From Sabellastarte sp. h YS-2021 (Eukaryota; Annelida; Polychaeta; Sabellida; Sabellidae), in NCBI GenBank assembly GCA_964017235.1, contig OZ024929.1, positions 29,509,464-29,573,463 of the forward strand: DNA of 64,000 nucleotides. Direction: 5' to 3'. A program made the position numbers and the translations under genes. This document shows positions 2,081 through 55,947 of the stretch, piece by piece (within the stretch, counting starts at the first letter, position 1; each line of letters starts with the position of its first letter). The notes beneath the pieces are model-generated. The model was not told the origin of the DNA, searched no databases, and saw only the letters and a list, made by a program, of their open reading frames with translations.

Positions 2081-3071
2081 TGTAAATGAGTAAGCATTGG
2101 CAGGAAACTGCCAACTTTTTTCAAATTTAGCTCAATGCAGAAACTCAAAACCATAACATTGAAACTGTGGAGGCTATTGCTACGCTAATTTGAATATTGA
2201 CTCACAGAATGTAGAATCAGGAACGGCAGAGTATCCCACAGTATGTGACCAGAACCACTACAAATACCATAAATTTCACTCAAAGACAATGTGGCCTAGA
2301 AAGCTGATATATGGCCCTGTCAATGCTGGTGAAATTTATACTGAAAGTTTGATAGCAATGCAGTTTCAGGTTTGATGTCAGGAACATGCAGACGACTTTT
2401 GAAAACAACTCAATTTACCAAAGAAAAACAATTGCCATGGCAGCATTCTTCACCTAATCTTGGCGAAATGTTTTTGATAAATTCTGCCTAGGTAGAAATA
2501 AAGTCCAAGGGTGAGTACTTCTGACTTCTTTAAAGAATGGCAAGGTCCATCGCTTACAGAGGTCTTGAAGTACAAACCTAAGAACTTTATTTCTATTATA
2601 AAGACTGGTTCAAATATTATTTTATGCACATTTTTGTCACACTGTGTTCTGTCTGTATCGTGTCTTCTATTATTGACCATCATTCATTTATTGCTCCAAA
2701 TAATGTACCGCAAAAATTGCATACTGCAGTGTTTTTGGCTGTCTGCACACTTCCATTCTACAATGGGTTACGCACTATGTGAAAATTTGCTAAGGTTCGG
2801 TCAAGTACAGTGGAAGTGAGAGGACATCGATGGCGGATACAGGGAAGAACAGACAGATGGGAACCAATTATTCCCATGTCCTCCTTTAGCCTTTGTTGAC
2901 ATGGGATAATAAATATAAAACACTACAATAAGTGCAATTCAACACCATAATTATGATACAAAAATATTTTTCCAAAAAAAACCCACAAATGTTACTGTAA
3001 TGTCTAGTAATTGCAAAGTAAAATCTGGGGGTTTACTGGGGCACCAATCTCATATTTTTGACTGTACTTAC
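2081..3071. other. Intron 10 of WDR33, rest
   Basis: AT-rich sequence between the SINE and exon 10. I looked for the next WDR33 exon (the conserved KFWTRNRPGD region) on the minus strand and did not find it, so the intron extends past the left edge. Confidence 0.6.
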
Positions 3072-3182
3072 GTGTTGTGGTCATTAGAGCCTGTCACTAG
3101 GATATGTCCCAGTGGATGCCAAGTGGCGCTCCAGATCAGGCTGTCATGTGCCTCGTTAATATTCCCCACTTCACGCTCATGG
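3072..3182 (-). CDS. WDR33: WDR33 exon 10
   Basis: The acceptor TTTCAG precedes 3182 and the donor GTAAGT follows 3072. The exon completes the glycine begun in exon 9, then encodes HEREVGN, an AHDSLIW segment and [16 protein letters not shown], matching the last propeller blade. It ends with two bases of the next codon (AC). The following exon is outside the window. Confidence 0.92.
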
Positions 3183-12100: not shown

Positions 12101-15100
12101 AATTCAGTTCACTTCCTCGATTTTGACGTGAACTGTCATGATAAACCTATCTCTTTTGAATAATCATATACACCTGCAAAATCATGCCAGACTTCAAGAA
12201 CCCCCACATGCAAAAATCTCAAGATCCAGATAAACATACCACATTCGAAAGTTAAAGGTGAGCTTCCCCCCTTTTCCAACAGTTATAGTATTTTGTCTAA
12301 CAAATGGTGCAGCATAGTCCAGGATAAAGATTTAACCAAAGCAGCAAATAGGTCTTCACAATAACAAGAAAACAACAATCACTTTGGTAAAGTGTATTAA
12401 AGTTTCACTGAAAATCTGATAAATATCGATGACCTTTCAAGTTTGATCTCAATTTGTTTCACATACCTCTAAAAATTCTCTCTTCATGGCAGCGTAAAAA
12501 ATCCCAGATACGGACAGTACCATCATCAGAACAGGACGTATATTTTTGGTCAGTTGGGGAAAAACTGTATCAGTAAAACAACAAAACACAACCTCTTTGT
12601 TGTATTCATTGACAACCTTTCTATAAAACAAACAGCTTCAACAAAACGTTCACAATTTTATTAAAGAAGTCAATTTGCAAATTTAATAAGTAAATTAAAT
12701 TTTTATAAGTTAATACCCTATCCAATGGACAATTGCTTTACCGGTCGACGCGACCGGTCCCGCCAAACGTCAGAAAAAGACGTCCTGTATATACTACCGG
12801 CAGGACCGGTCACAGAGTGTGCATTCGCCAGGTGGCGCATGGTACTTCATTTCCTGTTTACCTATTGACGTCATAGCATCTTTTTCGTGTCTAATCCTAG
12901 TAAGACCCCTAGTAAGCTGATAGCGGGGCCGGTTGGGTGGGCCTTGCCTATCCATTGGATAGGGTATTAACTTATAAAAATTTAATTTACTTATTAAATT
13001 TGCAATTTTATTGTGTTAATACATCCTATCCAATGGACAATTGCTGAATAACTACCGCTTGGTAGGCGGGTAAGCAGCTAGGGACTTATGTGAACTCATA
13101 ACAACAAATTCGAACAGGCCCATTTGACCTAGGGTCAGAGAACCCTGAAAGGTCAGGGTTGGCCACTAACTCACCGGTTAACCGGGAGCCTACCGACGTT
13201 GCCCCCCCCACCCCTTTTTTCTTTCCTTCCAGAGATGGTCTGAGAAGGGAAAGATAGAGAGAGAGAGGGGCTGAGTTCAGTCCCAGAAGAAATAAACTTC
13301 CCAAGGGAAGCAAGTCACAGTTTTTTTTTTCTTTTTTTTTTTTTTTTTTTTGAAAATATATGTACACTCAACATATTTACATTATGTACATATCTAACAT
13401 ATTTACAATATGTACATATTTACAACATCCCCTCACTTCTGGGCCTGGTGGTGCACCTGCTGGGCAGCCACTACAGGTCCCAGGTGGAAAAGCTCTGAGT
13501 CAGCCCAGGCAACATCCTTCACATAGAATTGGGTGAAGGTGTTGTGAGATTTCCAGTGGCAGGCTGACAAGATCTGATCTAAGGAGATCCCTGATTGGAA
13601 GGCCTTAGAAGCAGCAAAGGCCCTAACATCATGGGCTTTAACCTGATGTAAGGTGAGGGCCTCCTGGTCAGAGAGCTCATAGCACAGAACCACAGTCTGT
13701 TTGATCCATGAGGAGATGGTGGCAGGTGAGATGTCTTTATCAAAACCCTTCTTGAAGGAGACAAAGACTAACTCCTTATTCTGCCTGAGGTCTGCAGTCC
13801 TGTCCAAGTAGTAGCGCAGAGCTCTAACTGGACATAGGGACCTGTCACCTTTGAGTGACCTATCCAGAGATGGTGCCAGGGCTGGGATGACCACTGGCGC
13901 CACACTATCTGGACCTTCCTTAGCCAGCTGGTTCTTGGATAGGAAGCTGGGTGAGGGGTACAAAGACACCTTAGACCAGTCTGACTGGTGTCTGATGTTC
14001 TTATGTAACCAAGCATGGATCTCACTCCTGCGTTTACCTGAACCCAAAGCCAGCAAGAAAACAGTCTTGAAAGTCAAATGTTTCAAGGAGGACTCTTTCA
14101 GGGGTTCAAAAGGAGCCTTTGTGAGCTGATGTAAAACCAGTGAAAGGTTCCAGGAGGGGATGCCCCTCCTGCCTTTAGGTCTGTCTCTATGGAAACTATC
14201 CAGGAGACGAGTGAGATTCTCATCTTTGCTGACATTAATGGTGGAATTGCCCAGTTTGTCAGCAATGGCGGATCTGTAGCCATCAATAGTGCCTGGTTGT
14301 AACTTCTTGTCCTGAAACAAGTGCAGGAGGAAGTCAGCAATGGCTTTCAGAGGTGGTGCCCTGAAGTCCACCTGATTACTGAGGCACCACTTTGTAAAAA
14401 TGGTCCACTTTGCCTCATAGACAGATCTGGTTGATCTTCTTTGAGGAGCCTCAATTCGTGCTGCCACTGCCTCAGAGAAGCCTTGCTCCTTGATTGCTGA
14501 GGCTCTAGGAGCCAGGCATGTAGGTTCAGATTTGACAGGTTCCTGTGAAGGACCTGGTTGAATGGCTGAGACACTAGGTTGGGTAGGTTGGGCAGACACG
14601 GTGGGATCTGGCTTGACATTGCTACCAGGTCCCAAAACCAGGGCATGTTGGGCCACCCTGGGGCAATCAGGATTATTCTGTTGCAGGGGTAGCTCCACCA
14701 CTTTGCCCAAGATGGCTGCCGGTGGGAAGGCGTATGGGTCCAGGTCCTCCCAGGAGAGACTGAGTGCATCCACTGCCCAAGCCTGGGGATCTGGCACCGG
14801 TGACACAAACTGGGGCAGTTTGTTGTTGAACCTGGTGGCAAACAGGTCCACTTGTGGCTGGTGCCACCTTGCGCATACAGCTTGGAACTCTGCTGGATGA
14901 AGTGACCACTCTGTTTGAATGGTCTGGCCAAGTCTGGATAGCTTGTCTGCTATCACGTTCAGCCGGCCGGGGATGTGACGTGCCCTGAGGGTTACCTGCT
15001 GTCTGGTGCACCAGGACAGGATTCTCCACAGTAGGGCACACAGTGACCCCGACTTCATCCCCCCTTCTTTGTTGATATAGGCAACCACTGTTGTGTTGTC

Positions 15101-18100
15101 TGTAGCTATCAACACAGTCTTGTTGCAGACCAGGGTTCGAAACTCCTTTAGAGCTAGAAAAACTGCTTTTAACTCTAAGTGGTTTATGTGCAACTTGCTT
15201 TCTGGAAGGGACCAAGTTCCCCTTGCAGTGTGGTCGTCCAAGTGAGTTCCCCACCCTTCGTTTGATGCGTCTGTAAAGATCTGCAGAGCATGTTTTAGAG
15301 GGTGTAATGGTTGACCCAGTAGCACATTGCTTTCCTCCAGCCACCACCTTAGATGGGGGTGGAGGGACTTGGGGACCGGGATCACCTTTTCCAGTGACTC
15401 TGGGACCCTCCAATTGTTTTTCAAGTGCCACTGTATGGGCCTCATGTGGAGTCGCCCTAAGTGGACTTGTTTTTCTGTTGCTGTGAGGAGACCTATGAGG
15501 GACATGAATTTCCGGACCGGACATACCGGATCCGACATCATTGATCTGATCTTATCTGTCAAGGCCTGCCAACGTTCTGCTGTTGGTCTGACCTTGCCCT
15601 CTTTCAAGTCGAACTGGTAACCTACGAAGTTGAAGACCTGTTTGGGTGCCAGTTCTGATTTTTCCTTGTTCACCAGCCACCCTAGTTCCTGACAAAGTGT
15701 GACCAGGGTTTGGGTATGCTGGAGACAGGTATGGAGGGTAGAGGCTCTCACCAGCCAGTCGTCTAGGTACTGGTGGATCCTTATACCCTTCTGAAGGGCC
15801 ATGAGTTTGACCTCTTTGGCCACCACTGTGAATTCCATGGGAGCTGTGGAAAGGCCAAAGGGAAGGGCTTTGAACTGATAGGACCGACCCTAGAGGTGAA
15901 AACGCATGTACTTCCTGGACTGACTGTGAATGGGTATATGGAAGTATGCATCTTTGAAATCTATGGATGTGACCCACTCCCCTACTTGGAGGGAGGTTCT
16001 TATGGTCTCTGGGGTCTCCATCTTGAACGACCCTGTGTTTAAAAAGGTGTTCAAGGTGCTCAGGTCTAGGATGGGTCTCCACCGGTTGTTGGGTTTGGGT
16101 ACCAAAAATAGCCGGTTGTAAAACCCCAATGAATTTGGATTGTCCACCGGTTCGACTGCATTTTTGTTTAACAGCTGATACAGTGCCTCTATAAGGAAGG
16201 ACTGTTTGGTTGGATTGTGGTAGTTGCTTATTACAGTCGGTGACCTTGTCAAGTGGGGTCTGAACCGGAAGGGGAGGGTGTAACCCTCCCTCAGTATGTT
16301 TACCACTTTTGGACTTGAACCCAGGGTTTCCCATTTTTGCCAGCACTGGTTTAACCTCGCCCCTACAGGGGGATCTAAAACAGCATGTTGGGCATTGGTG
16401 ACAAGCTTTACAGAAGGTAATTTGACTTACACAAGAAACATCTTTCACATATTTTATTTCTGTGTACAATTGACATATATTGGGATTTACACCTTTCCTT
16501 TGTGGTAACCCGGTGACAATATGAGCATTTGCAACATGAGAGTCTACATTTAAAGTCAATTTGCTGTTCTTCTGATCTGTCACTGGTGGTGGGTTCAAAC
16601 CCTCCATCTTGTCGGATACAACTACAGAGTTCTTCAATCCGACCACATTTGAAACACAATAATTGTCATTTATGCTTCTTAAACCCTTTGGCCGGCTTCT
16701 GGTTGAAGTTTGAGGCTTTACCCCCACCTTTCTGACCAGTTTGCCGGTCTCTGATTTGTTTCCAAGCCGGTGTAGTGGGTTTCCGGTCCGGCTGGTGTGA
16801 AGGTTTAGTACTGGAGGGAACGTACGGATGAAAACGTCCGGGTTTCCTCTGTGTGCTACCCATAGAACGCCTCTCCTCACTACGGGAAATCTCATCTTCT
16901 GCCTTGACCAGTAAGCTGTCCGGGAACAGTGAGAGTAAGTGGATTGGAGATGTACGTAAGGCAGTTAAGGTGTCAGGTTTAACTCCACCACGGATAAACT
17001 CCAGATAGCTATCCCTACGTGCCAGAGTGAGGTTGGCCATGCTGATGAAAACTCCCTCTGAGAGATCCTGCATTGTACGCTGCATAGCCTGGGAGATTGA
17101 CCGGTTAAAGGTCACCAGATATTCAAGTTCTTCAATAGCTTGCTGTGTTCTCTCAGTACTCTTGCCCTTAGATGAATCTGGCCGGAGAGACTTCAGCTGG
17201 GTAACCATTGAATCCTGCACTTTAGTAAGGCATCTAGATAAACCAGCAGCGTGATTACACATCACGGATTGTTCCCTGAACGCCTTCTCCCACCTTCTAA
17301 GGGTATCTTGGCTGAATGTACGGGAAGCTGGAGCAGAAGGTAAACTTCTTCTTGCGACCCTAGAGAACATGCTGTTCAGCTTTGCCGGTTCCGGAGACCA
17401 GTGGGATACAGCCTGAGTAGACGCGTCGCCCTTCTTAACTGCTTGCATTTCATACCACTTGGAAGAACGTGGAGTCTTTACAAACTGGTCACGTAGCAGT
17501 CCACTGGTTTCAGAATTTCTAGCTGGATAACCTTCAGCAATAGTTACATTCAGTTTCTCCAGTTTTTTGCAAAGCCACTCATCAACCGGCAATTTCACTG
17601 ACACTTTACCGGTAGTCTTCACTCTAGAACCGGCAAAAGGATTATCATCCAAAGAGGCAGCTGAGTTATCATAATCCGGGATGTGGTGCCAGTTCATGAA
17701 ACTTCTAACCCCTCTAATAGTTTCCCTGTAATTGGCGTCTTCAGAGAGGTCCTGATCTGTAGCTGTGTCCGGTAAGTCACCCTGGCAGTGCATACTAGCC
17801 GGAGAAGACGGTTCCCCATCCAACTCAGCCTCACTCTCAGATTGCCTAGCAACGTCAGATTCCTGGCCAATGAGAGGCGACTGGTTATACAGCGTAGTTT
17901 CAACACCGGCAGGTAGAATTTCCGGACCCGCACCAGGAGCCTGTGAAGGCTGGGTGGCCGTCCCTGCACCGGGAACCAGTAAAGGTTGGGTGGCTAACAC
18001 TGTAGAGGTACCGGGGCCCTGAACAGGGTGGGTAGCACTCTCAACACCATCTCTCTCAGCCTCAGTACCGGGAACCCCCAGTGGAGGTTGGGTAGCCGTC

Positions 18101-21100
18101 AACTGCGTAGCAACGTCATCAGTGCCCTCAGAAGACATAACACTTGTAGAAGCACCCGGATCAAAGAAAGGGTGTTCTCTGGGCACCACAGAGGCAGAGG
18201 TCACCGGTCTCACCGGAACAGCAAAAGATTGGTTAACCAGCATAGCTTCTAGACGTGAAAATCTCTCACTCCACTTGTCATCAAGGGACTTGAGGTCGTC
18301 TGAAGTAGGTTTGCTGCTATGCTTCCGTTTACTCGACCTTGGGGAGCCATCAGAACGCTTCTTCTTCTTTGGAGTAGAATCAACAGGGGAGGACTTGTCA
18401 CAGCTAACCCGTCCCAACAGTGTAACATCTGAAGGGTCCACGAGAGTGGGGGTCGTGCTTGCATTACCTTCAGCCCTCTTCTGCTCAGAACGTTCTTTCC
18501 TTTCCTTGTAGTCGGAGTTGCTAACTGGTGGATCTGCGCAGGCGTAAAGGACTTACAGATCTGGCAATCCAGCTTTTTAACACAGGGGTCGTCTCCCACC
18601 CCCTTGTCACGACAACGCGCGCATTTCTGGTGGTTGTCGAAAAGGGCCATAACGTGCCCGCAAGAACCTCGTTTCTGTCCAGGAGACGACATAATGATCA
18701 GTAACGTTGGTAGAATTACTCCGTACTAATAAAAAACAAGAAACTTGGAAGAGTTCGTTGTAAAAATTAAAAAACGTATCTCTGAAGAAAATCTTCTGCA
18801 CACTCTTTCGCGCCAAACGAAAAAGATGCTATGATGTCAATAGGTAAACAGGAAATGAAGTACCATGCGCCACCTGGCGAATGCACACTCTGTGACCGGT
18901 CCTGCCGGTAGTATATACAGGACGTCTTTTTCTGACGTTTGGCGGGACCGGTCGCGCCGACTGGTAAAGCAATTGTCCATTGGATAGGATGTATTAACGC
19001 AATAAAAATGTTAAATAATATCCAGTGACTTTGAAGCACATGATCCTTTATCTGGTGCACACACCCCTTCTCAGTTGTATCTGTAACTGTTGACTTGATC
19101 CTGTAAACCTCCTTAATGTAATAACTTCCAACTCCAATCCTGTAAACTTTCTCAGTGTAATAGCTTATAACAAGACTAGATACACAAGTTAAAAGTACAA
19201 TGAAAAAGTCAACTGATAAACAACTTCACATCAAGGGAAACTTGTAAAAACATTATTTAAGTATTATAATTTTTCACTGCTTATAATGTCTGGAAGTTTC
19301 ACAGATGAGTGTATTGACAAACACTTGTAATTTTTTGTTGTGCCATTAATGCTGTTATAAGAAGTATTTCTTCTTCCTGCAGTATTTTATCCATGATGAA
19401 TATTGAGAGGTATATAGATTTTTGGTTATCCAGTTCTGACCCAAATGTCGTCTTCTTATCAGATTTACATATTAGTCCCTTCCCAAAAGTATATGTTTTC
19501 CACAGCAAAACTTCTAAATAATATAATAGCATATCTCAAATAATATAAGCAGAGGTCATCTTTCAAGACAGAAACAGTAGCCTTCACATATTTTGCTGTT
19601 GTGTGTGTTTGTGGTTTTAATATTTGTTTAATGTTTAAGATGCATATCTTGAAACTGAAAAATTGGTATTTTTCAAACAAAGTGTTAAGACTTCAGTTCA
19701 TTTAAATGTTCTTCAGGTTTTGCCAATGACTTAATAGGGTTGTTAATGCAATATTGCAACAGGTCTATTGCATTTCATTTGGCTAACTTGTAACCCCTAG
19801 ATCCTCAATGTTTTATGATGTAAATCTATTGGTCAATGCATCAATGGCAATATTCCATTTGACCATATTATCAGGGTGTTAAAAGTGTGTCTTGTGAACC
19901 TTCTAATACTGGCAGTCCCGACCAGATAGACACATGCCCCAACATAAAAAATTAATCTGATTAGCATTAAATTAATAAGGAAGAAGAATATTCGAATTGT
20001 AAAGTTTTAGCAGTTAATATCTTACCTAACAGGCCTGTGCATTATCCCAGCACAAGCCAATCTCACCAAATTTAACAATAGATGTCCTGAGCTATGGTCC
20101 AGCCAGACCAGACGTATCCCAAATATTTGCTGGATGGCTATTTTTTCCAGTACTTCCCACAGGGCCACAGATGACACAACTTCCCCTTTTTGTTGTAGTC
20201 TGCTAACAAAAAGGTCCCAAGTAAGGGGAATCTGCAGGGATGGTACAGTGGAATCCCCTGCCTGTTAGGCAAGATATTAACTTACAAAATTTTACAATTA
20301 AAATTTAACTTATTACGTTAATATATCTTCCCGGACAGATATGTGCCAAAATAACGACCCAGTGGATGGTGGCAGACTAACATGCAAAAAAAATAAAAAT
20401 ACAGCCAACACTCCCATGACAAAGGTTCAATAATCCAACTGATTAATTCTAAAGGAATTTTGTATTAATTTGTGATATAGGAGAGTAAGGAACTAAAAAA
20501 ACCTAGGCGTATAGTGCCAGATAAAAGGTGTAATACAAGGGTGAATGTTCTTTAAAAACAATCTTAACTCTTATATGTACACCTGACAAAGACTGGTATA
20601 GTACACTATATACAGAAATTCACCTTGGGTTTAGTGTTGTATTTGTTGAGCAGTAACCACTGGGTCTAGATGTTAAAATGCCAAGTGAGCCCAAGCTAAA
20701 AATTTGGTAAAGGTATTATGTGACTGCCTATGACAAACTGACAGGATCTGCTTTTGGGATACTTCATCTGGAACAGAAGCAGCAAAGGCCCTAATATCAT
20801 GAGCTATAACCAGATGCAAATACATTGCTTCCTGGTCAGTCAGATTTGACAGTTAAGTGCTGCTTCTGAGAAGCTCCCTTAAGTAGCTCAAAGGAAAGCT
20901 TTGTCTACTGATGTAAGCCTAAGGAAAGGTTTGAACTAGGAATACCTATATGCCTCTACTGTCTATGCTAGTTGAAGCTATCCAAGCTTTTATTGAGACT
21001 TTCATTTCTGCTGATATTGAGCCCCACATTCATAATCTTATCTGCAATGATTGATCTATAGACATTAATAGTCCTGGGGTGCAATTTCCAGTCCTAAAAA

Positions 21101-24100
21101 TGTGCAGGAGGAAGTCTGCAATGTACTTTACAGATAGTGACCTAAGTCCACCTGTTTGGATTTGCATCATATCAGAAAAACCGACCACTTTGCCTCAAAA
21201 ACAACTTTGGATGAGCTTTTTCCAAGAGCCTCAATTCTAGCTGCCACTTGGGTCAGAGAAGCTCTGCTGTTTCATAGCCATGGCTTGAGGCAAGCATGAA
21301 GCTTCAATAGATTTTTTTAAATGGGAAGGTAGATAGGTATTGATGACAGTTTCACTACATTCCAAAAACATGGCATGTTTGGTCAACTTGTAGTTACTAA
21401 GACAACTTTGTGGCAGGTGTTCTTCATAATTTTGCTGACCACCTAGCTCAGAAGAAAGACCGGGCAGAAAACATGAAGTTTAGTTCTTTCCAAGACAGGC
21501 GTAAACAGAGCATAGCATAGCAGAGCATAAACTGACTAGGCTTTTGAAACTTGGACTGGGGAGACAAACTGTGGTAACTTTTTGCTGCTTCTGGTGGTAA
21601 AGAAGTCCACTTGGGTTAGTGCCACCTGTTTCAGATATGCCTGCATATCCCTTGAAGAAGAGATCATTGTCTGCATCACCTACCAGTTACATCCACTTGG
21701 GTTAGTGCCACCTGTTTCAGATATGCCTGCATATCCCTTGAAGAGATCATTCTGTAGGAATCACCTACCAGTTAGTTTGTAATCATGTTTAGGCAACCCA
21801 GAATATGATCGGCTTTTAAGACAATGAGATTGCACTAAGACTGGATTATCCACAGGGAGCTTGATTTCATACCAGGCACGGATATTCATATTCTTAAGTA
21901 TTCAAATACATTTTTCTATGTATTTGTATGTATATTAGAACACTTTTGTGAAAAATGCAAAGTATTTGTATACATTTCAAAAGTATTTCATATATGTATT
22001 TGTATGTGTATTAGAATACTTTTCTGAAAATGCAAAGTATTTGTATTTGAATACATTTCAAAAGTATTCATGAACACTTTTATTACATTAAACTAGAAAT
22101 AGGACGCCCTGTAGATAGTAGCTGCGACATATGAATAGAAAGAGGATAGCACAAAAGAATACACATTATCATGTGTAATGTCCACCCCATGAACCTTTTG
22201 GTAAAATTGTACAGTAGTGTTACAAGACCCTGTTTCATTTGTAAAATATATCAATGATGCTTAAATATTTATTAGTGTACATGTAAATCATTTCAGCTTC
22301 ATGCCTTTTTGCATTGGTTGGGTCAAAAATTTTGACGAAATCACTCTATCTTGCACGGTTAAGAAGATAGAAGCAAATTTCTGTTTTTCTATTTTGGGCA
22401 AAAGTTTGAAAATTCAAAATGGCCGCCATTTTTGGGAAAAGGAAAATTTTTTTAAAATTGCCAAGAGTACATTTGTTAGATACCCTATGGGTCGAAAATT
22501 TCAACGAAATAACTATTTTGCACGGTTAAGGCCAATTTGTGTTTTTCCATTTTGGGCAAAAATTCGAAAATTCAAAATGGCCGCCATATGTGGGGAGGGG
22601 AAATTATTTTTGAAAATTGCCAAGAGTACATTTCTTAGATACCCTGTGGGTTGAAAATTTCGACGAAATCGCTTTATCTCGCACGGTTAAGGAGATACAA
22701 GCAATTTCGTGTTTTGCCATTTTGGGGAAAAATTTGAAAATTCAAAATGGCCGCCATATGTGGGTAGAGGAAAATTTTTGAAAATTGTTAAGAGTACATT
22801 CCTCAGATACCCTGTGAGTCGAAAATTTCGATGAAATCCTTCTATCTCACACGGTTAAGGAGATAGAAGCAAATTTGTGTTTCGCCATTTTTGGCAAAAT
22901 TTGAAAATTCAAAATGGCCGCCATTTTGGGGGAGGGGAAATTTTTTTTGAAACTTGCAAAGAGTACATTCCTTAGATACCCTGTGGGTCAAAAATTTCAA
23001 CGAAATCACTTTATCTCGCACGGTTTAGGAGATATGAGTACATTTGCCTTTTTCAGTATTCAAAATAGCCAATTACTCATTTATTTAGTTAATGACTCAC
23101 TCATCTATGAAGCAATTCCCCCCAAAAGCAATCCCATACAACCTATTAACCCAATGAACCTCCATACCAAATTTCAGAAAGCTAGGCTTAATAGCATTTC
23201 TGAAAATGTCTGGAAACCAAAGAGATACTCAAAAGTAGCAATTACTCAGTTAGCTATAGAGCTATCATCACCAAAAGCAATCCCATACAAGCTATTAACC
23301 CAATAAACCTGCATGCCAAATTTGGTAAAGATAGGATAAGAACTGTTGCCTAAAATGTCTGGAAACCAAGTGGGACGCCGGAAAAAGCAAAAATAATATG
23401 TCCACCCCCCAGCGGGGTGGACATAATAATTTTCACTTTAATTGACTTATTTCTTTGCCCTTAAAACAAGTTTAGATTCAAATATGAAAATTACTGCATT
23501 TGTTCCCATGAGAACTAACAGCATATATTTAAAGAATACTTTAATTTTATCATGTACATGTTACATGACACAATAATGAAATTGTCCTACAGGATCCGAG
23601 TAGTTATATTGTAATTTCCTCTCTTCGATCTATATAATTGGGCTAGTTTTTGAGTTTAAAACAAGTAAACCTCGAGGATCGCTTGCAAAAATAGATGTTT
23701 TTGCACAGCAAAAACAAAGCCTCCCAAAAAGGATATAAAGGCGAGTGCTAAAGTATTAAGAAAATGCTCTGCCATTATGAAAATGGCCGCCATTTTTGGT
23801 GAAACCAAATTTTTTTTTAAAATGGGATGTCTACTCTGCAGATATACTCTGCGGGTCAAAAATTTCGTCAAAATTGCTCTATCTAGCAGTTTTTGAGATA
23901 TCAGAAATTTTGTGTTTTTGCAATTTTTGCGAAAAATTTTAAAATTCAAAATGGCCGCCATTTTTTTTGAAAATTGGGATGGCTACTCTCCAGATATATG
24001 CTGGTCAAAATTTTTGTCGAAATTGCTCTATTTCGCACACTTCTGGAGATATAAGCATTTTTTTGTGTTTTGCAAATTTGCGAAAAATTTGAAAATTCAA

Positions 24101-27100
24101 AATGGTCAGCATTTTGGGCAAGACAAAAATTTTGGGAACATCAGGATAACTACTTTGGAGAGATACCCTGCGGATCAAATATTTCATCGAAATTGCTGTA
24201 TCTAGCAAGGTTTTCGAGATATAAGCATTTTTGTGTTTTGCAATTTTTGCAAAGTACAAAAGAATGGGTCTCATGTGAAGTCAAACTGAAGGGACTTGCT
24301 TTTCTGTGTCAGTCAGACCACTGAGAGACAAAAATTGCCCGACTGAACAGACCAGTCTTGATAACAACTTTAATTTGGAATTCAGGGTCTGCAACCTTCC
24401 TGTGGTGGGTTGACCACTTCCTGGAGTAGGTCATATTGTTGGCCAACAAAGTCAAAAACTTGCTTGCTTTCTAATTCTCACTTTAAGGTTTACTACCCAA
24501 CCTAATTCCTGACATAGAGCTAGCAAGGCCCGTGTCTCTTGGCAACACAATTCCTTGGGTGATTCATCTAGGTACTGGTGGATCCTACACCTTTCACTTC
24601 TACCACAAGCTTTACCTCCTTCACGACTATGATGAATTCCATCGGTGCAGATGACAGTCAACAGGAGAGAGCCTCAATTTGGAAGATTGACCTTGGTAAT
24701 AAAATCTTAGATACTTTCTTGAGCTTTGGCTTACAGGGATGTGGATTAAGTATCATTGAAGTCTAGCAAGGTTACTCATTTTGTTTGTTGAAAAGAAAGT
24801 CTTAATGATTCTGGAGTTGCAATTTTGAAAGACTTGATATTGGGGAACATATGCTGAGAGTTCAGATCTAAGATGGTCCTTCATTTGTTGTTTGGTTTTG
24901 GGACCAGAGAAAATACTATGGTAAAATGCCAGAGAAAACTGAACCATGCTCTCTTCTATGGCCTGCTTTTGTGAGAAGAAATGCAACGTATGTCCGCTCT
25001 TGATGAAAGGATGTCTGGTCAGAGTGGGCTTGATTTTGAATAGCAGGGTGCAGGTCTGCCAAAATTTGAGTATGTACAGCAAAGAAGGCACTTGCGATAG
25101 GCAGCGCAGACAAAAACAATGATTGACAAAAGCATCTTTTACATGCTTTACTCACTTCAAATCTGGGTCTTTCACCTTTGTTATGCTGCACTTTTAGGAG
25201 TTTTAAACACAAGGAGTCTTAAGGACAAGATAATTTTAATGTGCATGTTTTAAAAACTGTCTTTCTGAGACACTGGGTACACAATCTGCTTGGGAGCTTA
25301 ACTGATCTACATGCCTCACACAATGATTGTCATTTGTATGACTGTGACCCTTTGGCCCATTTGTTTTGAGTGACCAGATCCAACATTTTTAATTCCCCTG
25401 CCTCTGAAACAGCCCTGTGGGCTCAATGACCTCCAGGCTGGTTGGTTAGTAGACTGACTGGATTCATAGGATGTATTGTTCCGAGAAGACTTCTGAGATG
25501 AACTAGTTTGGTATGGTCGGTAACAACTTTGTTTCCTAATGACAAACTCCTCGGAGCCTGATCCAAGTTGGTATGCCTAGATTTTTTAGATCTGGCGATT
25601 TCTTCTTCTGTTCTGGTCACTAAAGCATCTAGAAAAAATAGCATCAGAGATGCTTGTACCTCACAGCCTGGGGAAATAGTTTTCAACAACACGAGATATA
25701 GAAGTAGTGAAACAGTTCAAAGAGCTGGATACTTTCAGAGCAGTGTTAGTTATATAAAGCTCCACATAATGTTTAAGTAGAGAAAATAACATTTAAGAAA
25801 ATAGCATCAGAGATGCCCGTACCCCACAGCCTAGGGAAATATTTTCAACACCATGAGATACAGAAGTACTGTACCAGTACAAACTTCAGGATACTTTCAG
25901 AGCACTGTCAGTTATATAAAGGTCCAAACAATGTTTAAATGGAGAAATAATGTTTAAAAGAAAGATAATGCATATAAAGATGAAGTACTAAAACAAGATA
26001 ATTCAATAACAAGATAACAGCATTAATCAGCAAACTAAAATTCAACACTCTTTATCTACACCTGCATGGCCCAATTATGGTTTAGATGGTTTGAATATTA
26101 TCATGCATACAGAAGTGGTAATACATTTAATGAATGCTTATGTGTGGTGTTGGAGCAAAATCTGTGGCTCACTTGATGAAATTCTATCTCTTACAATGGG
26201 AAGTTATGAAAGTAAAATTCTTAATAAATTCTAATATGACTTTAACAGTGCTAAATCTGCATTAAAAAAACAGACTCAAAGGTGCAACAAGATTTTATAG
26301 GTCAAGGTCACTACAGCAAGGTCAAAGGTCAAATCAAGGTCAGATCATGACCTTGCACAACTACACCCCCTAACCAATGTCCCTACCAAGTATCAACTTC
26401 CTACACCTTGCGGTTTCCGAGATATAGCCCGGACAAGATTTTCGAACTCAAGGTCACTACGGCAAGGTCAAAGGTCAAATCCTTGTCAGACCATGACATT
26501 GCACACCTACACCCCCTAACCAATATCCCTACCAAGTATCAACTTCCTACACCTTACGGTTTCTGAGATATAGCCCGGACAAGATTTTATAGGTCAAGGT
26601 CACTACGGCAAGGTCAAAGGACAAATCAAGGTCAGACCATGACGTTGCACACCTATACCCCCTAACCAATATCCCTATCAAGTATCAACTTCCTACACAT
26701 TACAGTTTCTGAGATATAGCCCGGACAAGATTTTATAGGTCAAGGTCACTACGACAAGGTCAAAGGTCAAATCAAGGTCACACCATGACGCTGCACACCT
26801 ACACCCCCTAACCAATATTCCTACCAAGTATCAACTTTCTACACCTTACGGTTTCTGAGATATAGCCCGGACAAGATTTTATAGGTCAAGGTCACTACGG
26901 CAAGGTCAAATCAAGGTCACACCACGACGTTGCACACCTACACCCCCTAACCAATATCCCTACCAAGTATCAACTTCCTACACCTTATGGTTTCCGAGAT
27001 ATAGCCTGGACAAGATTTTCAAACTCAAGGTCACTACGGCAAGGTCAAAGGTCAAATCAAGGTCAGACCATGACGTTGCACACCTACACCCCCTAACCAA

Positions 27101-30100
27101 TGTCCCTACCAAGTATCAACTTCCTACACCTTACGGTTTCTGAGATACAGCCGGGACAAACTCTTTTCCCGCCGCCCACCCACCCGCCCACCCACCCACC
27201 CGGACGCCCGCCCGCCCATCCGGACACCATGGGTGAAAACAATACCCCAACAGCCCTTAAGGGCTGTGGGGTAAAAATGTATGTAAAGATAAAGTATTAA
27301 AACAAGACAATTCAATATCAAGATGACAGCATTTATCGGTAAACTAACAGAAGGGTCAGCAATGCCCCAAAAGGCGGGTTGCACAGGCAGCAATAAGGTT
27401 AGCGACTGCTGTAATTAAATTTAGAAAAATATAGCATCAGAGATGCCCGTACCCCACAGCCTGGGGAAATATTTTTCAACACCATGAGATGTAGAAGTAG
27501 TGTAACAGTACAAAGTTCAAGATACTTTCAGAGCAGTGTAAGTTATATTAAGGTCCAAATAATGCTTAAGTAGAGAAAATAATATCTAAGGAAAAGAAAT
27601 GTATATAAAGATAAAGTATTAAAACAAGATAATTCAATAATAAAATGACAGCATTTATCAGTAAACCAAAAATGGCCGAATTATGGTTTGGATGTTTTGA
27701 ATATTACCCATGCATACAGAAGTGGCAATACATTCAATGAATGCTTATGTGTGGTATTGGAGAAAAGCCTGTGGCTCACTTGATGAAATTCCATCTGTTA
27801 CAATGGAAACTTGCATAATGAAATTCTTAATGAATTCTAATATGACTTTAACGGTGCTTAATCTGCATCAACAGACAGACCCAAAGGTGCAACAAGATTT
27901 TAAAGGTCAATACAGCAAGGTCAAAGGTCAATCAGTGTTATACCATGATGTGGCACACCTAAAACCCTCAACCAATGTCCCTACCAAGTATAAACTTCCT
28001 ACACCTTACAGCCTCTGAGATATAACCTGGACAAGATTTTATAGGTCAAGGTCGCTACAGCAAGGTCAAATCAAGGTCACATGACGTAGCACACCTACAC
28101 CCCCTAACCAATGTCCCTGACAAGTATCAACTTCCTACATATCTTACGGTTTCCAAGATATAGCCCAGACCAGGTATTATAGGTCAAGTTCACTACAGCA
28201 AGTACAAAGGTTAAATCAAGGTCACACCATGACATTGCACACCTACTACCCCCAATCAATGTCCTCACCAAGTATCAGCTTCCTACACCTTACAGTTTCC
28301 GAAATATAGCCCAGACAAGATTTTATAGATCAAGGTCACTACGACAAGGGTCAAAGGTCAAATCAAGGTCACACTATGACGTTGCACATCTACACCCCCT
28401 AACCAATGTCCCTACCAAGTATCAACTTCCTACACCTTACAGTTGCTGAGATATAGCCCGGACAAGGTTTTATAGGTCAAGGTCACTACAGCAAGGTCAA
28501 ATCAAGGTCAGACCATGATGTTGCACACCTACAACTCCTAACCAATGTTCCTACCAAGTATCGACTTCCTACACCTTACGGTTTCTGAGATATAGCCCGG
28601 ACAAGATTTTATAGGTCAAGGTCACTACAGCAAGGTCAAAGGTCAAATCAAGGTCAGACCATGACGTTGCACACCTACACCCCCAACCAATGTCCCTAGT
28701 AAGTATCAACTTCCTACACCTTACAGTTGCTGAGATATAGCCCGACCAGCTTTTATAGGTCAAGGTCACTACGGCAAGGTCAAAGGTCAAATCAAGGTCA
28801 GACCATGATGTTGCACACCTACAACTCCTAACCAATGTTCCTACCAAGTATCAACTTCCTACACGTTACGGTTTCCGAGATATAGCCCGGACAAGATTTT
28901 ATAGGTCAAGGTCACTACAGCAAGGTCAAATCAAGGTCAGACCATGATATTGCACACCTACACCCCCTACAGCAAGGTCAAATCAAGGTCAGACCATGAT
29001 ATTGCACACCTACACCCCCTAACCAATGTCCCTACCAAGTATCAACTTCCTACACCTTACAGTTGCTGAGATATAGCCCGGACAAGGTTTTATAGGTCAA
29101 GGTCACTACAGCAAGGTCAAATCAAGGTCAGACCATGATGTTGCACACCTACAACTCCTAACCAATGTTCCTACCAAGTATCGACTTCCTACACCTTACG
29201 GTTTCCGAGATATAGCCCGGACAAGATTTTATAGGTCAAGGTCACTACAGCAAGGTCAAATCAAGGTCAGACCATGACGTTGCACACCTACACCCCCAAC
29301 CAATGTCCCTAGTAAGTATCAACTTCCTACACCTTACAGTTGCTGAGATATAGCCCGACCAGCTTTTATAGGTCAAGGTCACTACGGCAAGGTCAAAGGT
29401 CAAATCAAGGTCAGACCATGATGTTGCACACCTACAACTCCTAACCAATGTTCCTACCAAGTATCAACTTCCTACACGTTACGGTTTCCGAGATATAGCC
29501 CGGACAAGATTTTATAGGTCAAGGTCACTACAGCAAGGTCAAATCAAGGTCAGACCATGATATTGCACACCTACACCCCCTACAGCAAGGTCAAATCAAG
29601 GTCAGACCATGATATTGCACACCTACACCCCCTAACCAATGTCCCTACCAAGTATCAACTTCCTACACCTTACAGTTGCTGAGATATAGCCCGGACAAGG
29701 TTTTATAGGTCAAGGTCACTACAGCAAGGTCAAATCAAGGTCAGACCATGATGTTGCACACCTACAACTCCTAACCAATGTTCCTACCAAGTATCGACTT
29801 CCTACACCTTATGGTTGCCGAGATATAGCTCGGACAAGATTTTCAAACTCAAGGTCACTACGGCAAGGTCAAAGGTCAAATCAAGGTCAGACCATGACGT
29901 TGCACACCTACACCCCCCAACCAATGTCCCTGCCAAGTATGAACTTCCTACACCTTACGGTTTCTGAGATACAGCCTGGACAAACTATTTCCCGCCGCCT
30001 GCCCGCCTATCCGGACACCATGGGTGAAAATAATACCCCGACAGCACTTAAGGGCTGTGGGGTAAAAAGGAAAGAAATGTTAGGTCAAATGTTAAGGTAA

Positions 30101-33100
30101 ATGTGTTAGATGTGCTATGAAATGTAAAACTTGTAATCTAGGTTACATAATTGTATCTATGGTATAAAAGGACAAACGAATGGATGGAATTACACCAATT
30201 TCGAAAGCAACTTAGCTATGATGGTGATGTATCTCCCTGTCAAGTTTGAATTTGATTGGACAAAGCGTTTTTGAGTTAGAGTCTGGAAAACGAAATGTTG
30301 ATGGGCAGACAAATGGACAAAAAACATATAAACGAACACACGGAATTACACCAATTTCGAAAGCAACTTAGCTATGATGGTGATCTATCTCCCTGTCAAG
30401 TTTGAATTCAATTGGACAAAGCGTTTTCGAGTTGGAGTCCCGATACAAAAATGTTGGACAGACAAATGGACAAAAAATAGACAAATGAACGGAGAGAATT
30501 ACACCAATTTCGACAGGAACCTAGCTATGATGGTGACCTATCTCCCTGTCAAGTTTGAATTCGATTGGACAAAGCGTTTTCAAGTTAGAGTCCGGAAACG
30601 GAAATGTTGACGGACAAACGAACAGACGGAATTACACCAATTTCGAAAGGAACCCAGCTATGATGGTGATCTATCTCCCTGTCAAGTTTGAATTCGATTG
30701 GACAAAACATTTTTGAGTTAGAGTCCGGGAACGAAAATGTGGACAGACATCGGACACACCAATCTAATAGGCGGGTTGGTTACATGCAACCCGCCTAAAA
30801 ATTATGAAGCTGTAAAATTTATTAATTGGAGAATGGCTGTCAATGGAAACAGCACAATTATGTAAAAGTGCATATAATAATCAGTTGCAGCAATCCATAT
30901 ATCTTTGTCATAAGAGAGAGATGTCTCAAATATGGCATGTGAACACACTTTGGCAGAGCCAAAGTTAAAGATCAGACCATGATGCATACCTACACGCCCT
31001 AACCTATGTTGCTACCAAATGTCAACCTTCTACACCTTATGCGATCCAAGAAATAGCCCAGACAAGACTTTAAAACTCATGTTCACTATGACAAGGTCAA
31101 AGGTCAAATCAAGGTCACACCAAGATGTTGCACACCTACAATCCCTAACCAATGTTCCTACCAAATATCAACTTCCTACACTTACAGTTTCTGGGATACA
31201 GCCCAGACAAGAATTTATACGTCAAGGTCACTGCGGCAAGGTCAAATCAAGGTCACACTATGATGTTGCACACCTACAGGCCTCAACCAATGTCCCTATC
31301 AGGTATCAACTTCCTATACCTTACAGTTTCCGAGATACAGTCCAGACAAGAGTTTATAGGACAAGGTCACTATGGCAAGGTCAAATCAAGGTCACACCAT
31401 GATATGGCACACCTACACCCACTAACCAATGTCCCTACCAAGTATCAACTTCCTACACCTTACGGTCTCCGAGATATAGTCCAGACAAGATTTTATAGGT
31501 CAAGGTCACTTGCACACCTACAACCCCTAACCAATGTCCCTACCATATATAAACTTTCTACACCTTACGGTTTCCAAGATATAGCCCGGACAAGATTTTA
31601 TAGTTCAAAGTCACTACAGCAAGGTCAAATCAAGGTCACAGCATAACATTGCACACATACACCCCCTTACCAATGTCCCTACCAAGTATCAACTTCCTAC
31701 ACCTTAAGGTTTTAGAGATATAGCCCGGACAATATTTTATAGGTCAAGGTCACTATGGCAAGGTCAAATCAAGGTCTCACCATGATGATGCACACCTATA
31801 ACCCCTAACTTATGTCCCTACCAAGTATCAACTTCCTACAACTTACGGTTGCCGAGATATAGCCCAGACAAGATTTTCAAAGTCAAGGTCACTGCGGCAA
31901 GGTCAAATCAAGGTCATAATGACATTGCACACCTATACCCCCTAACCAATGTCCCTACCAAGTATCAACTTCCTACACCCTACAGTTTCTGAGATACAGC
32001 CCGGATAAGCTACTAAGACTTTTACGTGTATTATGGATGGAATTCCATACATCTGGCTAAATGCTAGCGTTTAAATGATCAAGGTAGGCAGCCCTTCTAG
32101 CAAGTACAAAATTTCTGACTTGAATAAAAATGGAATTCTGCTAAGTGCTGCATGGCTTTACCACAGTCAAAACCGACATTCTGATTGATACCACTCAAAT
32201 CATGGATTTCATCCAAAGCCTGGTTGAAAATAAAGATATCCTCATTTGCTGCCCTCTCCCACTTCCTTAATGTCTCTTCGGATATGGGACAAGAGGAAGG
32301 AGAAATAGTTGCAGTACCCAAAAGGCTTGGTGCTGTGGATGTAGGAACTGTTCAAGTTAGGTTTTTTCTTTATACCAATGATATTTCTTCTGGATAAGAA
32401 ACAGCAGAAGCAGATAAGCCAGAGTGAAGATCATACCATGTCGACGAGTCTTGGGTATCCTTAAGAACTGGACAGTATGCCGACCTGCAGACTCTCCTGA
32501 CAAATTTGTATATCCAGTAAAAGTGGCCTCAAAATCTGGTTGAACAAGTCATCCAGAGGCATAGTCACGCTCACTTTCCTAACCAGCTGACTCTGAGTGC
32601 CAGTATCCATCTTAGATGCTGGTTGGTATTCTAGTTCAAGGATGTGATTAACTCTGATCTTCAGAGATGGGAGGTTCATCGGTTGGAAAATTCTCCCTCT
32701 TCAAATGGACGTTCAGGAGAAATTGTCTTGGGAAGGCTGGACTGAGACAAAAACAGGTTGTTTGTCTGCACAAAACATCTTTGGGTTGAACTGGTGGTGA
32801 GTTTTTTTTAACATAAAGGTTTTGCAAAGGAGATTTCATGTGCACTTGCCCTGGTCACCAATCTGGTTACACAGCCAGACCAGCTGGACTGGAAGGGTAT
32901 GACAGGGAGATGAAGGAGACTTACTTAGCACACATGCTGGTGTTGTGTGGCTTACATCCATTTTACTAGTCTTGAAGGAAGGTTCTGAACTAGGACCTGA
33001 TCCGAGTCTTAGGAAAGCTTCAATACAGACAAATCTTGAGTCCCATTTATCATCCAACTCTGCAAGCTCTTTTTTGTATGCATCACAGTGGGTAATAGAA

Positions 33101-36100
33101 GACTTACTTGGCATAACAGAAGCCAGAACTCATTTAAGGAGAAATTTCATCCACGGCTAAAACAACAGTAACAAATCGCTGGACCAACAAGAGTGCTAGA
33201 GGAATCTTGCTTCTTTTTATCCTTACGGATATTTAAGTCAGTGTAGATAGCTGTAGGACTTGAGTAGGTGACAACACTCCACAAAATTTACACTCTTGCC
33301 CCAACAAGCAAGGATCATGGCAGACCCGTTTCTACAATGTGCAAATTTATTCTGGGGATCAAAGCTCGACATCTTATGGCTGAATGAACTCTCTTCTGTC
33401 CTGGAGACACTATGACAGTCACGAAGTAAATCCAAGTGTGAGAAATACATGAACACACGATAAAAGGAAATAAAGGTTCTCTTAACCATAAGCATTTCCT
33501 ATTATGCCAAATGAAAAGAGGAAGATAGTCATCAGTGGTTCCCTGAAGGGAACTTGAGGAAATGGCTACCTAGCAAATGGCTGGGACACTACCGGTATGG
33601 CTGGAGCACAACTTAGGATGTTTTTTTCTGGTGTATGGCAGAATCCACTTGCACCAGACTAAGGCACCTGTCTGTTAGGTAAGATATATCAACACAATAA
33701 AAATTTCAGTTTTAAACCATTTGAAGTGCAGTTCAAAGTAAATATATTTATATCACTGAAAGACCAAGTATGTCAAACTATATACTAAAGAAAAGTTACA
33801 CATGTTAAATTCTTGCTGCAATAACTGGAACAAGGTTTTTCTTCAAAACAATGAGAGGAGAATCCTTTATGAATAATTAATTTAAACAGCTTTCAACAGA
33901 AGTGAATAATATGTTTGTCTTAGCACCTTTTAAGTTATCCTTATGAAATACATGTGTGCTACAATACCATGTGATCAATTCCAATATATTTAACATGGTC
34001 TACAAACTTTTATAAACTTGAGAAAATATTGTACTTTGTTCAGAGTAAGATTTAACTATTCAACTTTGGCAAATAACATTTTTGTGAGACTGTCCTAACC
34101 AGATATAGATGTTGTGAGTTCTGTTGTTTCTGTAGTTTTGTAAACCTTCAGCCAAATTCTTTAGATTTCCAGCATTTCGATATACGTTTATTTACACATG
34201 TGAATCAAACAGTATATGCAACAATCAGAGCTAACCACACAAGCAATAAAACATCCTGAAATAATCTTATTAGCATCTTGTAGAATCTGGCAGGCCTCTT
34301 CTTCAGGTCACAATCCTTCGGCAAAATGGCACTGGCTCTCATGAAATATCTGATTAATTTCTACTTTTGTAAAACAGTTTCATTAATTTCTAATTACAGG
34401 AATCAATTATTGAACATTAAAAGTTAAAAATTATGAAATCTTATAATAATGAAATAAAAATATTTATCAGACAAAATATTAAATGCACAATATTACATGT
34501 AAAATATTTAAAACAGTTTTTAGCAATTCACAAACTTGTGCAGATATATACTGATAATGCTGGTGTGACAACATTGATTTAAAGTGCATCACAAAGATCT
34601 GAGGTGGCAAGTCTTTGTAAAGCACTTTAAAGAAATGAGTTTATTTATTGAAATCAATGAAATCACACAAATATTCAGTGGTGCTCCTTTCCCAACCCAC
34701 AGGAGAAGTATGTTTATTACCACCCACAATGTAACCCCTTCTTTAGAGATCTCCAAGCCATGTATCCTGGATGCATTTAGATGATTTAGGACCATGAGTA
34801 GTGCATTGGGCCAAGGTCATATCAAATCAAAGCCATAGGTTTTTAGATATTTTCTGTTTTTTTAACCTCTCTGAAAATAAAACTACATTCTCTGGCAATA
34901 ATTTATTTAAATTTTATTAATTTTTATTCTTTATTTTTCTTTATTTTATATTTATTCAAATATAACAAGTGTATATACTACATGCAATGATGCTTTAGTT
35001 TGAAAAAAAAAGCTATAAATATATTTAACAAATAAATTCATAATAATAAAGTATAAAGTTTAATATCACAGGTAACAATGACTAGATTCATTAAGTTTTA
35101 TGCACAATATGAACAAGTTGAAATACCAGGGTGCAAGGGGGCGTAAGCCTTTATTGGGCACCCTCAGAATATTTAAACACCTCTGACTTTAATCTCCTCC
35201 TCATTGTGATAAAGTCTTGACACCAATCCATGGGATTCCCACAAAGTAAACTTTATCCACATTAATCATCCCACCAAAAATTAGCACCACTACTCGTGTA
35301 CAGGAAGTGGGTTTGAAATACTATTGACTTTTGTCAATATAATTTGACGCAATTTATAAAATTCCCGATGTTGAAACCAAACTACGGGAAACACTTTTTT
35401 TTATCTTCAAATAGCAAAGGCTTATTTTGGTCCAAATTTGTTCTCACCAATTAAGATAATCCCACTTCCTGCAGATTAAAAATTTCTGTGATTGAAATGA
35501 AATATTCAGACTTATCGTTGGCAGTTAGAATCAGGCCTGTTGTTGTCAGCAGTCAATGAACACGCACACACATGATAGTAAAGGAAGATCCAAAGACAAA
35601 CCACAACCTGTAGCCCGCAGCCGGCTGAGGAAACCAACCTTAATCCCCGCACTGGGTCCTTATGAGCTTGATACATTTTCACGTTGTTCATGTTGAGCTG
35701 CCAATACTTCACATAGCCCCCATGGTCGCCAGAGAGAAGCCATTGCTCATTATGACTCCACATCATGCAACGTACTGCTGAATCATGGGCCTAAAAGAAA
35801 AGATGTTTTGTCCCCCTTTAAATTATATTAAAGGTGATCTCTGGGAGACATTTCTGGTTAAATCAAAGTAGTTTTCTGGTACCTAAAAACTTGACTTAAC
35901 AGAGTCCATAGCATAAAGTGTGACTTTAATTGCTTATTACAAATGATACAACTGACTTTCCACTTTCTACATGAAAAAGAAGTACGAGATCGAAAATATT
36001 ATCTCAATATCAAAGGATTTTTTTTTCTTTGGTTACAAAGAATTCCAAAACTCAATACATTAGACACAACACAAGAGAGGTTTATATGAACATTTTTCAA

Positions 36101-39100: not shown

Positions 39101-42100
39101 CATAAGGGGGGGGGGTAAAACTGACCGGCTATTTAGACTCTCCACATATGCTTTCCCAATACCTCTTAATACATTCTGAAGGTATAAAAGCAACAATAAA
39201 GGAGATATAAGGCAAAACTCCAAAGCAACTATTTTATGACCCCAGTTTGATCTGTAAGGGGGGTCGGGGGATAAACCTGACCGGCTATTTAGATTCTCCA
39301 CATATGCTTTCCCAACACCTCTTAACACATTCTGAAGCTATAAAAGCAACAATAAAGGAGATATAAGGCAAAAACTCCAAAGCAGCTATTTATGACCCCA
39401 GTTTGACCCATAAGGGGGGGTCGGGGGATAAAACTGACCGGCTATTTAGATTCTCCACATATGCTTTCCCAATACCTTTTAATACATTCTGAAGCTATAA
39501 AAGCAACGATAAAGGAGATATAAGGCAAAAACTCCAAAGCAGCTATTTATGACCCCCGTTTGGCCCATAAGGGGGGGTCGGGGGGGTAAAACTGACCGGC
39601 TATTTAGACTCTCCACATATCCTTTCCCAATACCACTTAATACATTCTGAAGCTATAAAACCAACAATACAGGAGATATAAGGCAAAAACTCAAAATCAG
39701 CTATTTATGACCCCAGTTTGACCCATATGGGTGCTGACCGGCTATTTAGACTCTCCACATATGGTTTCCTATTACCTCCCAGTACATTTTATGGCTCTAA
39801 ATGCGTGTGTGACCTAAATTTGTAAATTTTAATTACTTAAATGTAGCTTTTATAAGCTACAAGCTTACCATGTGGGACTTAATGCTGTTCTCGGGTTGCC
39901 ACACCCGGGGCCAACGTCTTAGAAAAAAAGATCGTTCTTGTTAGCCACCGGATATACTGGTAGTTGTCGTCACGTGATAACTTCTGACCAATCACCCTAC
40001 TTTCTCGTTGAAATTTTATTAAACCTACCCCTCAGCTGTAAACAGCGGGGAGGCAGGGTGGGACTCTTCTAAGTCCCACATGGTAAGCTTGTAGCTTATA
40101 AAAGCTACATTTAAGTAATTAAAATTTACAATTTTATTACGCTACAATAGCTTACCATGTGGGACTTAATGCTGAATTCAACCGCCCGGTGGCGGGATTA
40201 CAGCTGAGACTGGAAGATATGTAATTTTTTTCTAAGATTTGAATTAATATATACAGAATAGTGCCAGAAATGCCAGTCTGAGTCCCTTTTACAGAGCCCC
40301 GATCCCGAAGATCGGGCCTGTAACGAGCCAAAAACCTGAGTAAAAAGGGACAGTGCTAAAAACTGTCCAGATGTTTGGTAGTAGGACGGAAGTGCAGCAG
40401 TGCTCACTTCGAGGTCTAAGGGTCCCTATTAGACCTTCACGTGTGACTGACCAACCCCGTGGTCGGGCATCTCATGAAATTTTTAACCTGAAATATGAGA
40501 TTAACGACAACTGACTAAGTCCTTAATAGAAATTACCTGATAATTGAAAAAATAAAATGACCTTACCCGTAACATCTTGAAGGTAAAGGAATACCTAGAT
40601 CCTGGGAGAGACTCCTGAAGACTTGGTTGTAGCGGATGTGCCCCCCCCCCCCCCCCCCCCCCTTTTTTCTTTCCGAGGACAACTGGTCTGAGGGGAAGGA
40701 TCTAGGACTTGTTGTGCCGCCACTACGGGTCCCAGATACATATTGTTGTCGGTGTCCGACCAAGTAAGTAAAATTTGTGAATGTGTTGTGAGCTTTCCAG
40801 TGACCGGCTTGCATGATTTGGTCCACCGATACGCCACCGTAAAAGGCCTTAGAGGCCGCGAAGGCCCGGATGTCATGCGCTTTGACTTGGACCAAGTCCA
40901 AGGCTTGTTGATCTGCTTGTTTATAACAAAGTAGAATGGTTTGTTTCAACCATGAGGAGAGTGTAGCGGGTCTGATGTCTGAGGTATGTCCTTTCTTAAA
41001 GGAGATGAAAAGGACACAACGAGACCCTCTCAGGTCTTTAGTTCGGTCCAAATAGAACCTCAGGGCCCGCACGGGACACAGGGTCCTGTCTTCCTTAAAC
41101 TGTCTATCTACAATGGTAGTCAAAGCAGGAATAGTCACTGGTGACACACTTTGAGAACCTTCTCTTGCTAGTTGGTTTTTGGCTATGACATCAGAAGAAG
41201 GGAACAAGGCTACCTTTTCCCATTGGCCTAAATTAGCTACTTTGTTAGCGACCCAGGCATGGATTTCGCTGCGGCGCTTGCCGGAGGCCAAGGCTAGCAA
41301 GAAAGCAGTTTTGAGAGTAAGATGTTTGAGGTTTGAGTCTTTCATGGGCTCAAATGGTGCTTTGGTGAGCTCGTTAAGGACAACAGAAAGGTTCCACTTG
41401 GGTAAATTTCTGGAACTTTTAGGACGATCCCTGTGAAAACTGGAGAGTAACCTATGAAGGTCTGCATTGTGCGCAATGTGTTGGGCCGTTGGGCCCAAAG
41501 TGTCAACGATAGCAGTCCTGTAACCATCAATGGTCGAGGAGCGCCTGTTTAGGTCTTGGTACAGGTACATGAAAAAATCTGAGATTTGTTTCACAGATGG
41601 AGTGGAGAAATCCACCGAATTTTCTCTGCACCATTTTTCAAATAGGGCCCACTTTGACCTGTAGATGGTCCTTGTTGATGACCGCTGAGGGGCAGCAATT
41701 CTCTCTGCTACCTCCACAGAGAAGCCTTGTTCTTGGAGTTGTCCGCTCCTAGACACCAGGCGTGGAGGTTCAGCTGTTGTGGATTGTTGTGGAACACATA
41801 GTTGTGGGACTGTTTGAGTAGGGTCGTTGACACTGGGAGTTGTAGTGGGATCTCTGTTGAGAGCTGCACTAGGTCCCAAAACCAGGGCATCCCTGGCCAG
41901 CCTGGGGCTATCACGATGATCAGGCAATGGCATTGCTTGATCTTTTGGATCACCTTGTGAAGGAGAGCCGTAGGAGGGTAGGCGTAAGCCGTGAGGTTGG
42001 TCCAGTTTATGTTCAGAGCATCTATGTTCCAGGCCCTTGGGTCTGGGATAGGAGACACATATAGAGGGAGTTTGTGATTCAGGTGAGTAGCGAATAAGTC

Positions 42101-55906: not shown

Positions 55907-55947
55907 TTGCAAATTTAATAAGTAAATTAAATTTTATAAGTTAATAC

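Follow-up and report, generated by a model that had tools for sequence, protein, structure and literature searches.

Does a string of decayed retrotransposon fragments, spread over about 13.7 kb of the Sabellastarte genome, represent one old element that was later broken apart, or pieces of different elements that came to lie side by side? The fragments occur in a window of 64,000 nucleotides (C3:29509464-29573463), and the genome searched along with it comprises 1.79 Gb in 647 contigs. Three fuller DIRS elements are found in the same window, all coding on the minus strand: A at ~12657-19050, with inverted arms that are 98% identical (172 nt); B at 39815-46217 (99%, 149 nt); and C at 55880-61957 (93%, 174 nt). 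In element A, Pfam matches to RVT_1 and to an RNase H-like domain were above the cut-off and that to Phage_integrase was below it (21.5 vs 27.1 bits), while six ORF stretches of A and B gave no Pfam match to a methyltransferase domain at E ≤ 0.01. A further 14 DIRS-bearing loci were fetched from the genome, hand-picked from the search matches, a non-random set. Satellite-like arrays accompany some of these elements: a 143-nt array encloses DIRS C (55197-55907 and 61930-62703), a 157-nt array encloses the DIRS copy in fetched locus L025, and the gag side of C holds 7.7 copies of a 60-nt unit (59996-60457). A fixed DIRS target position within the 143- and 157-nt arrays was considered and rejected, as the positions differ between C and L033 and between B and L025.

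Searches by tblastn with the proteins of A and B revealed a fourth, decayed DIRS element, termed R, at ~19,980-33,700. Its pieces lie in A's order and on A's strand, and blastn paired R 19926-20372 with A 12626-13069, R 20557-20845 with A 13370-13677, R 20841-21676 with A 14062-14920, R 24239-25084 with A 15409-16272, and R 33232-33909 with A 18506-19207. The gag of R, situated between these blocks, was detected at the protein level, and RT, RNase H and tyrosine recombinase were all present by tblastn with the A proteins. When the sequence from 19060 to 34800 was reversed as a control, there were zero matches at E ≤ 1e-4. Run forward, the search picked up the inserts described below and further satellite-like arrays of the window as well, since these arrays are also present in the sequence flanking the fetched DIRS loci.

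Read along the window, with every part on the minus strand, R begins with a left inverted terminal repeat (19980-20215, drawn from its match to the right repeat and approximate at its outer edge), which is followed by internal complementary regions (20258-20342) that are complementary to both ends of the element. The tyrosine recombinase remnant (20557-21330) was found by tblastn with the A protein and by blastn to A and to genome copies; about 385 nt is gone from it at 20842, with A 13677 simply meeting A 14062 and no insert between them. The RNase H side of pol follows (21331-21885, by tblastn and by blastn to L025, L027 and L029 as far as 21854-21860, which sets the edge at 21860-21885). 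Beyond an interruption come RT and the 3′ part of gag (24252-25638, by blastn to genome copies, with 25638 aligned to position 3591 of L033). After a second interruption, the 5′ part of gag (32010-33400) was recovered by tblastn, by blastn to L025, L028 and L033, and by protein scores, and the right inverted terminal repeat (33500-33704) by terminal-repeat, complementary-region and genome-copy comparisons. A short tandem duplication, read by eye, occurs in the RNase H piece at 21613-21760. This architecture resembles that described for DIRS1-like retrotransposons, such as those of Aplysia and Lottia, in the structural account of PMC3266345: gag, RT, RNase H and tyrosine recombinase are common to both, as are the inverted terminal repeats and the internal complementary regions matching the termini. 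Unlike those elements, R is decayed and interrupted.

Comparison with the fetched loci placed R more precisely. For each of four pieces of R, the best of the 14 loci outscored the best of A, B and C: E 7.5e-37 vs 2.75e-19 for the left end and recombinase, 3.5e-59 vs 3e-54 for recombinase and RNase H (where only L023 and L021 beat A), 1.9e-74 vs 9e-49 for RT and the end of gag, and 3.8e-26 vs 4e-14 for the start of gag and the right end; 14 loci against three in-window elements have unequal chances, and small differences in E mean little. Identity of the RT/gag-end piece to genome copies reached 66% over 755-765 nt by blastn. A tree of the RT piece was built from 12 rows, with L021, L030, L031 and L033 dropped for a best match below 450 nt and L032 and L034 dropped for having no match. 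On this tree, R is a separate lineage whose branch is the longest but for that of B; it groups with L022-L025, L027 and L029 (support 83/90, an open fork), and A and C are paired elsewhere (99/98). By these comparisons, R is a sister lineage outside A's family.

The two ends of R bear directly on whether it is a single element. Its left and right terminal repeats share 139 of 183 aligned bases, and their score of 365 compares with 156 for the best of 200 shuffles. From the left repeat, the other 17 sequences score no higher than 338 and so fall below R's own right repeat. From the right repeat, 4 of the 17 score higher than the 365 of its own left partner (L033 425, L028 390, L026 375 and L027 366), and the reciprocal-best test of the two repeats was thus only half satisfied, the match being one-sided. 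The complementary region of R (~20258-20342) scores 185 against the left end and 216 against the right end, where the highest of 200 shuffles gave 129 and 166, respectively. The complementary regions of A, B and C reach at most 120 and 161 against the same two ends, in a comparison confined to the elements of the window.

The gag of R, which the first-pass annotation had cut at about 25632 and resumed near 32040, is indeed cut at ~25633-25638 and resumes at 32010-32030. At the DNA level, the cut is spanned by one of the eight references, L033, on which R 32024 falls at 3575 and R 25638 at 3591, so that 15 nt separate the halves. The L021 counterparts of R 25466 and R 32043 are 4735 and 4704; the two sides overlap there because the gag of R from 25467 to the cut has no counterpart in that copy. 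As protein, the right half outscored every one of 200 shuffles with seven of nine relatives, and the left half did so with three of nine (A 53 vs 47, L027 51 vs 49 and L022 45 vs 41), while tblastn with the gag of A placed residues 499-535 and 539-562 on either side of the cut (E 0.006 and 0.21). At the cut itself, R reads TTTTTT, at the codons around Leu-Phe. The gag seam is drawn from the L033 alignment, the tblastn match to A gag and these codons. The same first-pass annotation had proposed a single DIRS element split by insertions, and its proposal stands up well: the fragments are collinear both with A and with other DIRS copies of the genome, and every part it named (recombinase, RNase H, RT, gag, repeats and complementary region) is present in A's order. 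Terminal repeats from different families, or gag halves from non-adjacent parts, would have spoken against it; the repeats belong to one family, and the halves are neighbours on L033.

What fills the gag cut, given in the first-pass annotation as AGGTCA elements and family H, is a set of elements set one inside another; four of them, all on the minus strand, could be resolved. The outermost, E1, occurs in three parts. The first (25633-25796) corresponds to E6 63128-63289, and within it 25650-25789 corresponds to E0 6681-6822; the second (27274-27347) matches E0 6838-6911 at 86% and E6 63299-63370 at 83%; the third (30796-32012) holds body and array but no end module at the gag seam, with 30796-30966 corresponding to E0 6909-7061. 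The three pieces abut on E0, another copy, and the first two do likewise on E6 (63128-63370). Between the first and second parts lies E2 (25797-27275), an AGGTCA HINE-like element with both ends, its head and tail as in other copies and its 12-nt subterminal inverted repeat (subTIR) reading TACCCCACAGCC. Between the second and third parts lies H, which is also HINE-like and is itself split into a left part (27345-27427) and a right part carrying a 153-nt array and a 12-nt subTIR (30064-30802); genome matches listed for the right part are 72-89% identical, and many of them end at query positions 733-736.

H is interrupted by E3 (27430-30063), another AGGTCA HINE-like element with both ends and a 12-nt subTIR. 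In 9 of 11 other genome copies of H (L038 to L046), the sequence is uninterrupted at the E3 site, and the left part is joined directly to 30064 (to 30068 in L044); the remaining two (L036 and L037) have no left part. No target duplication accompanies E3 in H. Since the E1 pieces abut on E0 and H is uninterrupted elsewhere, the order is the DIRS element, E1, then E2 and H, and then E3. The last unit of E1 resembles the last units of E2 and E3, and no tail follows 32012; for a clean insertion the missing end module is unexplained, and E1 may either have arrived truncated or have lost the module later. The array of E3 has recently duplicated a 300-nt stretch, whose two copies (28639-28938 and 29252-29551) lie 613 nt apart and are 100% identical.

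The second interruption, between RNase H and RT, is less tidy. RNase H homology stops at ~21860-21885 and RT resumes at ~24252 (24245 on L029), with 371-385 nt of DIRS sequence absent from R at the seam: between R 24252 and R 21860 (24245 and 21854 for L029), L025 holds 375 nt, L027 385 nt and L029 371 nt, these being the three of eight references on which the gap could be measured, as the other five stop short of that edge. The intervening sequence comprises an unassigned AT-rich left filler with a 76-nt duplication (21886-22091, no strand assigned), the HINE-like element K1 with both ends (22092-23426, minus strand, subTIR of 11 nt), a right filler (23427-23659, no strand assigned) and K2, a related array element cut off at its DIRS side (23660-24252, minus strand). 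The start of K2 is common to L044 and L045, and its stretch 23674-23772 is also present at 38583; array homology stops at 24253, and K2 has no end module at the DIRS seam. A single deletion that removed the end of K2 and the 0.37 kb of DIRS sequence together would explain both losses. The missing RT/RNase H stretch was sought in the ~440 nt of filler beside K1, and of 12 comparisons with DIRS copies a single one beat every shuffle (one of six for the left filler, none of six for the right). That one, left filler against L024, scored 152 against a shuffle maximum of 139, and two more of the 12 were above 95% of shuffles; the faint similarity is probably due to chance in AT-rich sequence.

The left border of K1 is sharp, as nine of nine other copies, whose flanks differ, begin in the way that K1 does at 22092. 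Longer stretches of it that take in the array are 86-96% identical in 7 of the 9, and L054 matches it throughout (22090-23430, 91%). Its left 240-250 nt are found in 39 other places at 95-98% identity, whereas the terminal repeats of R have fallen to 76%, and because of this clock-free comparison K1 looks younger than R. In L053 (~1285-3169), an AGGTCA (E) element is cleanly interrupted by a K1 copy and resumes after a 2-nt overlap; therefore, K1 insertion was later than the E elements there, too.

The inserts have a common anatomy. SubTIRs near the ends measure 12 nt in E2, E3 and H and 11 nt in K1, where random box pairs gave an inverted match of at least 11 nt in 4 of 2000 trials; K2 has an inverted pair of 10 nt, and no pair of at least 9 nt was found for E0, for E6 (whose tail is off the window) or for E1 at its seam. 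Central satellite-like arrays with periods of 139-168 occupy E2, E3, H and K1. Oligo-T insertion without target duplication was seen for E3 in H and for the K1 copy in L053, the two cases examined to the base, E1 and K2 each being without one end. These features recall the HINEs of the Pacific oyster, for which the description in PMC7492417 gives subTIRs around satellite-like arrays and an A/T-rich insertion site. In terms of that description, the inserts share with Cg_HINE an 11-12-nt subTIR, a central array of ~140-170-nt units (PMC7492417), a complementary inverted stretch paired with a palindrome on the opposite side, as read by eye, and an A/T-rich site with no target duplication, as in E3 in H and K1 in L053 (PMC7492417). 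The palindromes and microsatellite of the inserts were identified by eye, and the likeness is one of described anatomy, with E1 and K2 each short of one end module. By this anatomy, the inserts look like HINEs, i.e., non-autonomous Helentrons, and would presumably have been mobilized by the rolling-circle route of Helentrons.

Taken as a whole, R is very probably one DIRS element broken by later nested insertions. The pieces are collinear, all belong to one clade, and the gag junction on L033 is nearly seamless; the E3 site is empty in other H copies, the E1 pieces abut, and the K1 border is sharp. A DIRS-type tyrosine-recombinase retrotransposon would have inserted on the minus strand at an early date, with decay setting in afterwards. 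Later, the HINE-like E1 would have entered gag in an oligo-T run that encodes Leu-Phe, to be followed by E2 into E1, H into E1 and E3 into H. Independently, K2-type array sequence would have come to lie between RNase H and RT, with the loss of ~0.37 kb of DIRS sequence, and K1 would have arrived at that site afterwards; the ~385 nt missing from the recombinase would be a plain deletion. As to what caused each deletion, and which of the two insertion sites was hit first, the account is inference. The initial account of two nested insertions was correct as to the number of sites, but six or more inserts occupy them (E1, E2, H and E3 at one, K1 and K2 at the other). Its three-layer chronology was right that the layering is real and too shallow by one, the deepest stack having four elements (DIRS, E1, H and E3). 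Its RNase H cut at ~21885, with RT from ~24263, agrees with the edges given above, but the missing DIRS sequence means that this was not a clean insertion. Neither this loss nor the gap in the recombinase had figured in that account.

Could R conceivably be a chance pairing of two truncated copies from one DIRS family, the first a left part and the second a right part? DIRS elements are dense here, three others (A, B and C) sharing the window, and the right repeat of R is closer to four other sequences than to its own left repeat. Against this, R holds no part of the element in duplicate, the terminal repeats and the short RNase H duplication excepted, R's own complementary region matches both ends, and two random ends in a 6-kb element would by simple reckoning meet within 15 nt, as the halves do on L033, about 1 time in 200. 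We consider such chance adjacency quite improbable. Less credible still, and very nearly negligible, is that the pieces were parted by rearrangement or by satellite arrays growing in place, with no insertion of mobile elements. Arrays do change in place, as the perfect repeat within E3 attests, but the inserts have subterminal inverted repeats and defined ends common to dispersed copies. Such ends and empty sites were found for E3, H and K1, including the empty sites for E3 in H and for the K1 copy in L053, and the borders of K1 are sharp. One DIRS element interrupted by mobile inserts thus remains the preferred reading.

Each kind of element in this nest is already known; the locus is a case of ordinary nested transposons, well resolved, and it leaves the known workings of DIRS elements and Helentrons unchanged. 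The E, H or K families have matches in or beside 7 of the 14 fetched DIRS loci, and other arrays of 143-157-nt units occur in four more, the loci being a non-random set. It is a long shot that DIRS elements and satellite-carrying Helentrons nest repeatedly in this genome and that DIRS elements may be a favoured landing place and growth bed for dispersed satellite DNA, with each nest dating a wave. At this locus, about a dozen would-be separate repeat matches become one readable stack, made of an old DIRS element and then several generations of satellite-carrying, Helentron-like elements, and stacks of this kind allow element families to be ordered by age without a molecular clock.
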